A stretch of 33,332 nt of DNA. It comes from [Chlorobium] sp. 445 (lineage in GTDB: Bacteria; Bacteroidota; Chlorobiia; Chlorobiales; Thermochlorobacteraceae). This document shows positions 24,541 to 30,907 of the stretch, in pieces (the first letter of the stretch is position 1; each line of letters opens with the position of its first letter). The position numbers and the translations under genes are program-made. Where the stretch lies: contig NSLH01000026.1 of NCBI GenBank assembly GCA_002763895.1, positions 1-33,332 of the forward strand, given 5' to 3'. Below the pieces are notes generated by a model. It saw only the letters and a program-made list of their open reading frames with translations. It was not told the DNA's origin and ran no database searches.

Positions 24541-27500
24541 TCAGTTGCTTTGCAATTTTTCCAGCGCGCCGTAGTAGCGACGAATCAGCTTTTGATAGTC
24601 GTCAGAATAGCCTTTTTCACGCAAGCGGTTGAGTGCGTCTTGGAATTTATTTCGCCTCACTTCCGTGTCAAGTTCTGCGGGCGACTTACGCATGAAGTTT
24701 TTGGCAGACTTTGCTTCACGCTGTTCTTCAAACTCTCGTTTTTGCAGCGATTTCGTTGATTGCAGCATACGAGAAAGAATTTGCTGTTGTCGCTTGACAA
24801 GTTCGCGTGAAAGCTCTTGTTGCTCCAGACTTCTTGCGATGTCTTCCATTTCTTCAGCAAGTTTTTCGAGATTTCCCATCAATTCATTGCCTTTTCCCTC
24901 ACGCTGTTGCTGCGCTTGTCGCTGTGCAAGTTGTTTGAGTTGCTCTTGAATCAAGCGTTGTTGAGCCGCAAGTTGTGCTAATCGCTGTGCTCTGTCGACG
25001 GGATTTTTTCCTTCTGCCATACCTTGTGTTTCACCATTGAGCGCACTTTGTTGGTCAGCCAAACCTTGCATCAATTCAGAAAGTGCGCCATCACCTTCGC
25101 CCTGACCATCGCCATTTTTCTGTCCCATCATTTGCGCCATCATCTGGCTGGTTTGTTCTGCAAAGTCATTAAGTGAGCGCATGGCTTCGCGCATCTGTTG
25201 CGCTGCATTTTGTGTGTTTCGTCCCTCGATTGCAGAAATTGATTGCTGCATTTGCTCTTCGGCTTCAGCTAACTTGCGCGCCATATCTGAACGAATTTTT
25301 GACGACTTTTTGCCAATCTTGGAAATGCTTTCTTGCAACTGTCGGAGCGATTCCAAAACCTGCTGCTGATTTTGGGCAAGTTCTTGCGCCTGCGCTTGTG
25401 AGGCTGGCTGTCGAATTTGCTCTGTTTCGTTCTTCAAGGCTTCTTGTTCTTTGGAGAGCTCGAGGGCAGATTGTGCGGCGTTTTGCATCGCTTCCAGAAG
25501 TTCTTGTCGGCGCTGGCGTGAGAGTTCTTGCTTCATCTCCGCAATTTGTTTCTGACGCTGCTTCATTTTTTGGAGCGCAGACTTTTGTCTTTCAGATGCC
25601 GCTTCAGGATTGCGCCCTTTGAGTTTCTCTTCTGCTTCGCTAAGGTCTTTTTCTAACTCATCTTGTTCTGCTTGAGCACGCAGTTTTTCTAATTCTTCCA
25701 TCGGCAATTGTTCTTGCTTTGGAAAATCTTTCATTTTGCGTTCCAATTCCTCGCGCACACGCTCAAACTCTTGGAGCTCTTTTTTGAGTCGTTCTTGCTC
25801 TTTTTGCAATTGACTGAGTTTGTCAGGATTTTTTGGTGGCTGCATGGTCTGCTCATGCAGCTCTTCTTGTTTTTGTAGCATCTCGTTTATGCGCTTTGCA
25901 AGTTCATCAATCTTGCGCTCGAGTTGAATGCGTTGCAAAAGCTCTTTTGTGCGCTCCAAACTTTTTTGAAGTTGTTCTTCGTTGAAGGTCATCTTCTCTA
26001 AGGCTTGACGCAGCTGTTGCTCGTTGACTTGCGCAAGTGCTTCTTGCAACTGGCGCATCGCCTCTTTGAGTTCTGGCGAGTTAATCTCATCGATTAGTCG
26101 CTGCACTTCTTGATACTTCTGCAAAGTTTCTTCGGAGACAAGATTGCGCTCCTGCATCGATTGCATCATTTTTTCTAGCTCTTCGGAAATTGCTGCTGCG
26201 CTTTTTTGCAACTCCTCTTGTTTTTTGAGCGCCCGCTCAATGGCTTTACGATCTTGCCAATTTGAGCGACTCTTCTGGCGCAATTCGTTTTGCACTTTTT
26301 CCAACTGCTCTTCAATGGCTTTTACTTCTTCGATTTTCTTTTCTAAGGCATCTGTGGTTGCCTGTTCAGCGCGGTCGATTTCAGCGAAGACTTCCTCGAG
26401 CGAAGGCAAACGGAATCGATAAAAATCGGTGCGCGCCGCTTTGTAGCCCGATACAGCGTCGTTATCGCGCACTTCGGCATAAAACTCTAATTCATCACCA
26501 GCGACCACACCTATTTTGTTCAAGTTCCAAGTAAAACTGACGATTTTGTCAATCTGTGAGCCTTCGCCTGCCAGTGGAATTGGCATTTCTCGAAAGTCTT
26601 TTTCAGGCTCACCAACTTCTGATTTTGTAACTCTAAACTTGAGCACAAGACTGCTAAACCCAAAATCATCCTTGAGCTCAAAGACCAGCGGCTGAATGAG
26701 TGCTTCTGGCAGAGTTGTCTCTTTTTCTTCAGGCTGCAGGAGACGAACGACTGGATATTCATCAGTTAGCACTCGGAGAGTGTAAGTTGCACTTTTCTCG
26801 GTTCGCATCTGCGTGTGGTCAAGTGCTTCAAGTCTGTAGGCAAGATCGTCTTTGAGCGTCAAAGCCAGTGAGGCAGAATCACCACTGACTTGCATAGAAA
26901 GCACGGTTGTATCATTTGCAACGAGTGCAGCGGTTTGAATTGGCTTTGAGGCTTTCAGGCGCAGCAAGACTTTTGAGCCTTTGAGTGCTGCGGCATCGCC
27001 AAAGTTAGGTTCGAGTTGCTGTGCCGACAGGCGGCTGTACGCAGGCGGTATGATGGTAAGTTGAAACATCTCAATGCGCGGCTTATCGAGCACACGAATC
27101 CAATGCTTCTGGCTTGATATGACTTTGCCTACGACATTGCTTTCAGCAAAGTACAGCAGCGGTTGTTTTTGATTTTTGAGCTGGTAGGAAAATTCACCTG
27201 CGCTGTCTTGAACCAGTTTTAGGTCTTGCAGCTCAAAGCCGTTTTCATCGAGGAGCTTGAGTGTGAGGCGATTCACATCTAAGTGCGTTTCAGCATCTGG
27301 ATGATCTACGACCTTGAAGCGCACGACTGCATCACTGCCCTTTGCCACTTGCACATCTTTTGAGAGTGAGACAATTTCAAATGGTGGCGGCGGTGTAAAA
27401 TCTTGATTGAACTTGACAATGCGTGTCAGAGCTTTGTTCAACCCAAGTGGCGATATTGCAAAGAGCAGTGCGGTCACCAACAGTCCTGTTGCCGCCACTC

Positions 27501-27987
27501 CACCCGACTTTTTTGCACTCTCAAACGAGATGGCTTCCTCAAACCTCAAGGGCTCCACCTCTTTCTCTACACTTGTAAGTGCCGCGACCGCAAATGGACT
27601 CTCACGCGCCTCACGGTAGACTTGCAGGGCATTGATGAGCCTATCTTTCAAGTTTGGAAAGGCTTCCCCAACAGCTTTGGCTATCGCATCAGGATTAAAT
27701 TGTTTTTGCAATAACGGTAATACAAAAAACCACAAGCACGCCCCCAAACTTACCACACCCAACACGACCAGCAACAAAAATCGCCCTACACTCGAGAACT
27801 TACCGATAGATTCTAACGCCGCTACACTGATTAGGCTTGCCAGCACAACGACCATGAATTTTGAAAATCCGCTAATCGCATCCTGCACTTGCATCTTGCG
27901 ATATGCTGCCCGCAATTTCTCAGTAAGCTGCTGGTAGGTTCGTTCTGCCATTTCGTTTTGCATTTTCATTTCAAAACTTATGTCCAT
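24541..27987 (-). CDS. DUF4175 family membrane-anchored coiled-coil protein
   Basis: Large envelope protein of 1,148 aa. Hydrophobic segments lie at about residues 44-62, 70-94 and 165-187, followed by an extracytoplasmic beta-rich region (about 190-535; FTPPPPFEIVSLSKDVQVAK begins it). From about residue 545 to 1,130 it is almost wholly Gln/Glu/Lys-rich coiled coil (for example ELEKKIEEV-like heptads and QRQAQQQREGKGNE). One Gly-rich break near MMGQKNGDGQGEGDGALSEL interrupts it. This matches the DUF4175 family known from Bacteroidota and Alphaproteobacteria; function unknown. Met1 is used, but Met7 or Met9 could serve. A transglutaminase-like gene follows after 11 bases, so the pair may act together. 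Confidence 0.8.
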   Translation of the reverse strand: MDISFEMKMQNEMAERTYQQLTEKLRAAYRKMQVQDAISGFSKFMVVVLASLISVAALESIGKFSSVGRFLLLVVLGVVSLGACLWFFVLPLLQKQFNPDAIAKAVGEAFPNLKDRLINALQVYREARESPFAVAALTSVEKEVEPLRFEEAISFESAKKSGGVAATGLLVTALLFAISPLGLNKALTRIVKFNQDFTPPPPFEIVSLSKDVQVAKGSDAVVRFKVVDHPDAETHLDVNRLTLKLLDENGFELQDLKLVQDSAGEFSYQLKNQKQPLLYFAESNVVGKVISSQKHWIRVLDKPRIEMFQLTIIPPAYSRLSAQQLEPNFGDAAALKGSKVLLRLKASKPIQTAALVANDTTVLSMQVSGDSASLALTLKDDLAYRLEALDHTQMRTEKSATYTLRVLTDEYPVVRLLQPEEKETTLPEALIQPLVFELKDDFGFSSLVLKFRVTKSEVGEPEKDFREMPIPLAGEGSQIDKIVSFTWNLNKIGVVAGDELEFYAEVRDNDAVSGYKAARTDFYRFRLPSLEEVFAEIDRAEQATTDALEKKIEEVKAIEEQLEKVQNELRQKSRSNWQDRKAIERALKKQEELQKSAAAISEELEKMMQSMQERNLVSEETLQKYQEVQRLIDEINSPELKEAMRQLQEALAQVNEQQLRQALEKMTFNEEQLQKSLERTKELLQRIQLERKIDELAKRINEMLQKQEELHEQTMQPPKNPDKLSQLQKEQERLKKELQEFERVREELERKMKDFPKQEQLPMEELEKLRAQAEQDELEKDLSEAEEKLKGRNPEAASERQKSALQKMKQRQKQIAEMKQELSRQRRQELLEAMQNAAQSALELSKEQEALKNETEQIRQPASQAQAQELAQNQQQVLESLRQLQESISKIGKKSSKIRSDMARKLAEAEEQMQQSISAIEGRNTQNAAQQMREAMRSLNDFAEQTSQMMAQMMGQKNGDGQGEGDGALSELMQGLADQQSALNGETQGMAEGKNPVDRAQRLAQLAAQQRLIQEQLKQLAQRQAQQQREGKGNELMGNLEKLAEEMEDIARSLEQQELSRELVKRQQQILSRMLQSTKSLQKREFEEQREAKSAKNFMRKSPAELDTEVRRNKFQDALNRLREKGYSDDYQKLIRRYYGALEKLQSN

Positions 27988-28144: not shown

Positions 28145-29097
28145 TCAACTTTTTTTCAGAAATGACTGTGCTGCTTGAAGTTTGCTTTTGAGATCCGTGC
28201 CTTTTTGTTCCGATGTTACGTTTGTATCGTGAGCAGGTTGCGGACTTTGCTTCTGTGAATGCGCTTCAGGGTATTGAATATACTCGTTATTTTTTGCGGT
28301 GGCTTCGCGCAAAGTGCGTTCCATCTGTTCCTGTGTTACCGGTTTAGGAATGTATCTGAACACATTGACTTCATTTACCGCACGCATGATAAGTTTAATA
28401 TCAACGGTATCGGTCAAAATGACAATGACCGTTTGAGGATGCTCTTGTTTGAGGGTCTGCAGAAAATCCACACCATCGTATTCACCCAAGTCGAGTTCGC
28501 TAATTACCACAGCGACATTTTTCTTTGAGCAGGCCTCAAAAGCCCCATCAACTGTATCTGCTGCAACGATGTCGTACAGATCGCTGAGTTTTTCTACCAG
28601 TTGAGCAATTTCCTCTTTCGTATAGCCTACAAACAGCACGGCTGGTTTCAGCGATGTCTGTGCTACTGGCGTAGTGATGCTGGAATTTACCACTTGAATT
28701 GTGGAGGGTTTGAGCATGGTCATTCTATCATAGATTTGTACACCCAGCTTGACCACATTTTGCAGCATTTCTGGTCGGCAGGGCTTGTTGAGGTAGCGGA
28801 AAATTTCGCCGGCATTGACTGATTTGATCACACTCTCTAAATCCGCATAGCCTGTGAGCAGCACACGAATTGTGTGTGGACTGATCTGTTTTACTTGACG
28901 CAACAGTTCGTGTCCGGGCATCTGTGGCATACGTTCATCGCTAATGATGACCTTGATGGGATACTGGCGCAGGATTTCTAAAGCATCATAGCCATTTTCA
29001 GCTGTGTGCACGTTGTAATCAAATTCTAACAGCCCCCTCAGAGAACTGAGCATCAGCGCTCATCATCGACCAACAGGATATGCGAGAGTTCTTTCAT
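28145..29097 (-). CDS. Dual-receiver response regulator, second receiver degenerate; frame break near start
   Basis: Response regulator of about 317 aa with two receiver domains and no DNA-binding domain. The unrepaired frame lacks the start. The ATG at 29097 reads MKELSHILLVDDER and breaks near 29055-29059; adding one C continues it as LMLSSLRGLLEFDYN. REC1 (residues 5-125) has the acidic pair Asp11/Asp12, phospho-acceptor Asp54 (IISDERMPQMPG), Thr82 and Lys105. REC2 (about residues 150-265) keeps the Thr (VILTDT) and Lys252 (YIPKP). It lacks the acidic pair (VGYT) and has Glu201 at the acceptor site (VVISELDLGEYDG). The 50-residue tail is polar. The regulator lies downstream of a histidine kinase gene on the same strand, likely its partner; output may be by protein contact. 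Confidence 0.85.
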
Positions 29098-29311: not shown

Positions 29312-30907
29312 TCAGGAAATTTTAATTGCGTTTGTCTCTTCTATTGATTCTTCTTTTGCTGTGGCGCCCTGTTTTTGCTTTGCCTGCTTTATAGGCAGCG
29401 TGATGATAAATTCTGACCCTTCACCGACTTTACTGCTGACCTCGATTGTGCCGTTATGGCGTTCAATGATTTTATAGACAATCGAAAGCCCAAGCCCTGT
29501 GCCTTGTCCCACTGGTTTTGTTGTAAAGAATGGCTCAAAGATTTTCTTCAAATTTTGTTCGGGAATGCCGATGCCTGTATCAGCGATTTTGATGAGCACT
29601 TTGTCACCTTGAGAGCAGGTTGTAATGGTAATTTTGCCAAATTTTTCAATTGCTTGGGCAGCGTTGGTAATGAGGTTAAGAAAGACCTGATTCAGCTGTG
29701 CAGGGTAACACTCCACAGTCAGGTTCGGTTCGTAGTTTTTTACCACTTCGGCTTTATGCTTGACAACATTGGTTGCAATCACCAATGCAGAGTCGATATT
29801 TTCGCTCAGGGTTACAGTTTTCAGTGCGGTTTCATCGAGGCGCGAGAAGTTGCGCAGGTTTGTTACAAGTTCTTGAATGCGCTGCAATCCGATGTTAGAT
29901 TCACTTAGCGTTTTGTGCGTGCGTTCGATGAGTGCCTTTTCTTTTATGCCTAAGACCACTTCGCGTACGGTTTCTAGTTGTGCTTCCAAGTCGTTCAGTT
30001 CTCCTTCACGCAGCATCATTTCCATTTTTTGATATTCTTTGAGCACACGTTCTAAAATGCCGAGGTTGCGCTCGACAATGCTGAGGTTATTTGTTACGAA
30101 TCCAAGTGGCGTATTGACCTCGTGCGCAATCCCCGCCACCATCTGACCCAGCGACGCCATCTTCTCTGATTGAATTAACTGCGCTTGCGCATTTTTCAAA
30201 TCATCGAGCAGTTTTTCTATTCGCTCTTTTTCCAAAGCAATTTCGTTGCGCTGCCGAATGATTTCTTCTGTGTTTTCCACAATGATGCGGTCTTGCCGGC
30301 GTAGCGAAATCGTCAGACGCACAGCCATAGCAAAAAAGATGACCAGGCCAAGTAAAATCGCGCTCACTTGCAAGGTTTGTAGGCGCGAAATACGTTCATT
30401 AGACGCTTCCCCTAGCGCAATAATAAACTTTTGATTGGCATCTAATATCGCTTCACCTTTGTGCACTACAGCCTCTACGCATTGCTCGAGCAATAATGTA
30501 TCTATTGTACTGGCTTGCTGCTGCGAGAGCTTGAGAAAGTCTTCTCTGTGCGCTTCCCACACTTTGCTTGTTGCTTCTATAACTTGCAGAGCCTTTTCTT
30601 CCGCTACAGGTTGAACAGCAATGCTTTCTCCAAAGAGTTTAGCTGTCCCTCCCTTCCTGAGTGCCATTTGAATGTTGTCGAATTCTTGGATTGCAAGCGC
30701 AAATTCTTTGAAGGAGGAATCAACTGCAAAGCCAGTAAAGAGTTTGATGTGTGTATCACGCAAGTTTTTTTCAGCACGTTGCCATTCGCGCGCACTTTGT
30801 GTGGCAAGTGCAACCTGTTTAGCATCTTCTTTGCTGCGTTTTGCCAAGACAAAATTCAAGATGAATACTGAGAAGACAAGCAATAGGAACAGCACAGCGT
30901 AGAGCAC
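29312..30907 (-). CDS. Membrane sensor histidine kinase
   Basis: Two-component histidine kinase of about 531 aa. TM1 (about residues 3-22) and TM2 (about 181-200) enclose a helical extracytoplasmic sensor domain of about 155 residues with no recognised ligand signature. A coiled coil (205-250) leads to the dimerisation helix with phospho-acceptor His262 in VAGIAHEVNTPLGF. The ATPase core has N-box NLITNAAQAI, G1 IADTGIGIP, F-box IFEPFFTTK and G2 QGTGLGLS. All boxes needed for activity are present. The start used is GTG at 30907; the frame stays open upstream (about 15 more codons) without an ATG, so the true start is unsure. It lies 214 bases upstream of the dual-receiver regulator. Confidence 0.9.
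   Translation of the reverse strand: MLYAVLFLLLVFSVFILNFVLAKRSKEDAKQVALATQSAREWQRAEKNLRDTHIKLFTGFAVDSSFKEFALAIQEFDNIQMALRKGGTAKLFGESIAVQPVAEEKALQVIEATSKVWEAHREDFLKLSQQQASTIDTLLLEQCVEAVVHKGEAILDANQKFIIALGEASNERISRLQTLQVSAILLGLVIFFAMAVRLTISLRRQDRIIVENTEEIIRQRNEIALEKERIEKLLDDLKNAQAQLIQSEKMASLGQMVAGIAHEVNTPLGFVTNNLSIVERNLGILERVLKEYQKMEMMLREGELNDLEAQLETVREVVLGIKEKALIERTHKTLSESNIGLQRIQELVTNLRNFSRLDETALKTVTLSENIDSALVIATNVVKHKAEVVKNYEPNLTVECYPAQLNQVFLNLITNAAQAIEKFGKITITTCSQGDKVLIKIADTGIGIPEQNLKKIFEPFFTTKPVGQGTGLGLSIVYKIIERHNGTIEVSSKVGEGSEFIITLPIKQAKQKQGATAKEESIEETNAIKIS

Follow-up and report, generated by a model that had tools for sequence, protein, structure and literature searches.

Pseudo-receivers and aspartate-less receivers retain the receiver fold and have lost key catalytic residues (PMC12632262, PMC4395418). 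A 2025 perspective states that the on/off control of these domains in bacteria is unknown (PMC12632262). In PleD from Caulobacter (REC-pseudo-receiver-GGDEF), a true receiver comes first and a pseudo-receiver second. FrzZ-type proteins from Myxococcus and Azospirillum (PMC4618731) consist of tandem receivers with no recognised output domain, and FrzZ itself is described as a dual CheY-like regulator in a chemosensory pathway. HupR is a transcription regulator whose receivers have been solved as single domains, the wild type with an Asp at the acceptor site.

The window, a stretch of 33,332 nucleotides from [Chlorobium] sp. 445, encodes a protein that shares the order of its receivers with PleD, and its tandem receivers without recognised output domain with the FrzZ type. 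Unlike PleD it has no catalytic domain but a short C-terminal helix in place of the GGDEF domain, and the genes of its family mostly adjoin a kinase gene. In contrast to FrzZ, its second receiver is degenerate and it probably works with a membrane kinase. The conserved C-terminal helix further qualifies the resemblance to the FrzZ type. Among the matches listed, PleD chains 2wb4 and 9g85 are the ones that align across both receivers. The closest solved receivers to REC2 by fold are those of HupR, including its D55E mutant (2jk1, 2vui, 2vuh), and HupR receivers are also among the closest to REC1 by sequence. The features of the locus are as follows.

28145..29097 (-): tandem receiver gene, REC1-REC2-C-terminal helix; start ATG at 29097 inferred from relatives
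28730..29097 (-): REC1, canonical receiver, from profile and family comparison
upstream of the frame break (-): REC1 acidic pair
near 29053-29058 (-): frame break, with TGATG at 29051..29055, where the stop of the upstream frame overlaps the ATG of the 302-residue open reading frame
28937-28939 (-): REC1 acceptor Asp
28853-28855 (-): REC1 Thr
28784-28786 (-): REC1 Lys
28274..28645 (-): REC2, pseudo-receiver, from profile, residue counts and REC2-only model
28622..28627 (-): REC2 Gly-Tyr replacing the acidic pair
28496..28498 (-): REC2 Glu at the acceptor site, codon GAA
28412..28414 (-): REC2 Thr (Thr or Ser in 88/88 members)
28352..28354 (-): REC2 beta5 Tyr at K-3 (Tyr in 88/88)
28343..28345 (-): REC2 Lys (Lys or Arg in 87/88)
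28148..28192 (-): conserved C-terminal helix (LKSKLQAAQSFLKKS), following a variable linker
29312..30907 (-): membrane histidine kinase; the expected H, N, G1, F and G2 boxes were recognised by eye

The open reading frame at 28145-29053 (-) codes for 302 residues and is matched by the PF00072 profile in two stretches. Translation from the ATG at 29097 yields MKELSHILLVDDER before it meets a TGA that overlaps the ATG of this frame. Since close relatives are all unbroken at this site and read ...VDDEPLML..., we assign the acidic pair of REC1 to the broken-off piece; the frameshift cuts off both beta1 and this pair in the window copy. Because it also separates the true start from the open reading frame, numbering shifts by 15 residues: the preliminary description placed a glutamate correctly at the acceptor site of REC2, but its Glu201 is Glu186 of the 302-residue frame.

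The protein belongs to a large, kinase-linked family of Thermochlorobacter-like bacteria. For comparison we used 88 full-length members (the window protein and 87 homologues) from 17 genomes, with several members per genome in the order. These proteins are related and counts among them are not independent, so REC1 on the same tree serves as an internal control. REC1 is canonical throughout: acceptor Asp, Thr, Lys, Pro at D+4 and Gly at T+1 occur in 88/88 members, with variation at K-3 (Tyr in 66, Phe in 22). This conservation agrees with the earlier proposal that REC1 is the likely switch.

REC2 presents a different picture. The window copy reads FVGYT where receivers normally read FVDDE, followed by VVISELD with the acceptor Glu, then ILTD and YIPKP. 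The replacement of the acidic pair by VGYT and of the acceptor Asp by Glu, with Thr and Lys kept, is thus present as first described. With Gly-Tyr at the pair and Glu at the acceptor site, this domain falls under the definition of a pseudo-receiver (PsR/ALR). A structure model of REC2 by itself (mean pLDDT 76) gives a complete receiver fold with five strands and helices, and matches solved receivers with a TM score of about 0.8. Since the profile recognises the domain and the model recovers the full five-stranded fold, the residue pattern is not a product of chance. Across the family the pair is fully acidic in 7/88 members, and the acceptor site holds Glu in 42, Asp in 33, Asn in 12 and Ile in 1. 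Pseudo-receivers generally keep both residues of the Y-T coupling in 47% of cases and have Ala or Gly at T+1 in 43% (PMC12632262); in the REC2 family Thr/Ser and the beta5 Tyr occur together in 88/88, and T+1 is Gly in 5/88 and acidic in 55/88. A further difference from pseudo-receivers in general is that the acceptor residue varies among Asp, Glu and Asn within one family. The best conserved part of the domain is alpha4-beta5, with 3.02 bits as compared to 2.23 at the old active site. Judged by the chemistry of its residues, REC2 is a clear pseudo-receiver with an unusually complete signalling relay. An alignment had been suggested as a check on this assignment: the closest orthologues keep the Glu and likewise lack the acidic pair, and none of them combines Asp with an intact pair.

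Two distant tandem homologues, at 1849-3132 of L165 and 2060-3331 of L166, do have a REC2 with Asp and an intact acidic pair. They also carry an extra C-terminal PAS-like part, read from the sequence with no profile match behind it. Given this distance and the additional part we do not consider them orthologues of the window protein; they may be a remnant of the ancestral state.

Among named organisms, the closest relative is Candidatus Thermochlorobacter aerophilum (75% identity), and a degenerate-peptide scan of contigs from named genomes found no other. A survey of 41 genomes of the order placed full-length tandem homologues in three families, that of the window organism among them. A profile search at E 1e-45 detected none in 86 genomes of the fourth family of the order. 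Of 394 genomes sampled across the phylum, the profile search revealed homologues in at least five further ones, a lower bound since scoring was limited to the five best candidates in each genome. No match above curated cut-off in NCBIfam or PHROGs names the family, and none of the papers searched on two-component signalling in Thermochlorobacter or Chloroherpeton describes it. Pseudo-receivers as a kind are known; in the literature searched, this family appears to be undescribed, along with its distribution and its combination of lost and retained residues.

It had been suggested that the FRYxxKP-type ends of the two receivers reflect an old duplication. Both domains do end in this motif. However, FRYxxKP is the common ending of the whole receiver subfamily that holds REC1 and REC2. 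On the tree, the REC2 domains form a clade apart, and REC1 falls among other members of the subfamily. Trees that keep REC1 and REC2 together are rejected (p about 1.5e-5, with long branches as a caveat). The same result could arise if REC2 evolves faster, and we conclude only that the duplication is not supported.

We then consider which kinase may act on this regulator. In 57/88 members the gene immediately upstream, on the same strand, encodes a homologue of the window's kinase, and kinase and regulator distances correlate with r 0.73, a value reached in 0/999 permutations. These observations argue for the previously named adjacent kinase as the partner, and the product of 29312-30907 is likely the cognate kinase of the regulator. 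The other 31 members have no such adjoining kinase, including four of the closest relatives of the window protein (L042-L045), and in the cases looked at they adjoin unrelated genes. On the other side of the regulator the window encodes a large DUF4175 protein (24541-27987) with a long Gln/Glu-rich coiled-coil-like part; among the loci read, this gene follows the regulator in the window and in L039 only.

The protein was also described as having no output domain. This is correct for recognised domains: Pfam reports PF00072 only and no GGDEF, and the protein ends about 40 residues past REC2. The statement overlooks the conserved C-terminal helix, which in the family takes the form LRLRLRAAQALLxK, WWREKLRAAKKLFG, or one with a terminal Tyr. 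This helix is a candidate output motif. A separate group of 11 members (L066 and its orthologues L062-L065, L067-L070, L073 and L074) has Glu-Phe at the acidic pair and Asp at the acceptor site of REC2. Most of them end in a very strongly conserved, Trp-containing amphipathic helix (NWWREKLRAAKKLFG), which looks membrane-binding.

What does the acceptor Glu do? By itself it is not remarkable, since among such domains in general no other residue replaces the acceptor as often as Glu does (26%, PMC4395418). One answer is that it stands in for phospho-aspartate and keeps REC2 in an active-like state at all times, leaving REC1 as the only switch. The clade of the window protein has eight members drawn from three genera within its family; it is strongly supported and carries Glu throughout, encoded by both GAA and GAG; a ninth, more distant member (L046) has Glu as well. 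Such conservation across codon changes speaks for a phosphomimic, and Thr, Tyr and Lys are all present to receive the Glu. Replacement of Asp by Glu can partly activate receivers (PMC12632262, PMC4395418), and the D55E mutant 2vuh is the second-best solved match of the REC2 model. This reading is nevertheless unlikely in our estimate. Paralogues of the same architecture carry Asp (33) or Asn (12), close pairs differ at the site (for example L055/L058 and L087/L086), the acidic pair is absent from the REC2 of the window, and changing the Glu of ChxR does not abolish its activity (PMC4395418). On trees built without the acceptor column, the residue changes among Asp, Glu and Asn at least 10 times with 61 members and at least 11 times with 88, and Thr/Ser, Tyr and Lys/Arg stay across these changes. 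The sequences thus describe a Glu that is kept locally and on a longer scale is exchanged freely with Asp or Asn, almost never with other residues. Neither Asn nor unphosphorylated Asp should be able to replace a fixed phosphomimic, and the pattern fits a structural or electrostatic role beside the Lys better. The earlier idea that Glu locks REC2 in one state is weakened by these paralogues, in which all else is kept; within the clade of the window protein, Glu may still tilt the domain towards an active-like state. A different role for REC2 would be that of a ligand sensor, binding for example c-di-GMP on its alpha4-beta5-alpha5 face as in ShkA, whose pseudo-receiver provides a precedent (PMC7010744). 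The strong conservation of alpha4-beta5 and the several GGDEF proteins encoded in the genome are consistent with this idea. But the family's canonical REC1 shares the conserved D, N, FRY and KP, which makes them subfamily features rather than a ligand site as such, and we regard sensing by REC2 as quite improbable.

The frame break raises yet another reading, namely that the gene is broken in [Chlorobium] sp. 445 and that a working regulator is no longer made, REC1 having lost its first strand (beta1) and its acidic pair. The TGATG in the window copy is consistent with such a loss, and the same genome contains two further frame breaks, one in a second tandem regulator of the family (L102, 1447-2423 of contig C36) and one in an RsmB-like gene (L092, near 5201). 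The latter suggests assembly indel errors. Several breaks within one draft genome of 81 contigs, two of them in other genes, are best explained by errors in sequencing or assembly, and outside the break the window gene is undamaged and shows the same conservation as elsewhere. The frameshift is probably such an error, and we give real gene loss only a small chance.

The reading we favour, and hold to be rather probable, combines a phosphorylation switch in REC1 with a REC2 that serves as a non-phosphorylatable interaction surface, in a PleD-like manner and within a kinase-regulator cassette. The upstream kinase would phosphorylate REC1. REC2 would not be phosphorylated, having lost the metal-binding pair, with a bulky polar residue beside the Thr and a Glu at the acceptor site. 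Through the alpha4-beta5 surface and the Thr-Tyr relay, both of which it has kept, REC2 could dock or dimerise with phospho-REC1 or with another protein. The C-terminal helix may bind a target, and output would proceed via contacts of REC2 and this helix. Asp, Glu and Asn would be near-equivalent fillers of the old acceptor pocket beside the Lys, and Glu would not be the switch itself. The domain identities, the residue losses, the family pattern and the kinase linkage are read from sequence comparison; from them we infer phosphotransfer to REC1, a contact between REC1 and REC2, and the role of the helix. A full-length model built from two sequences is poor (mean pLDDT 48) and for this reason was not used for interfaces between the two domains. 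As a more tentative and rather doubtful extension, the relay of REC2 may work without phosphorylation, driven by phospho-REC1 or a partner, with the choice among Asp, Glu and Asn only tuning the resting bias between paralogous pathways of one cell.

The family consists of many paralogues with one architecture, several per genome, in which the acceptor residue toggles among Asp, Glu and Asn and the relay stays intact. Residue swaps between these natural paralogues would put the phosphomimic idea to a direct test.
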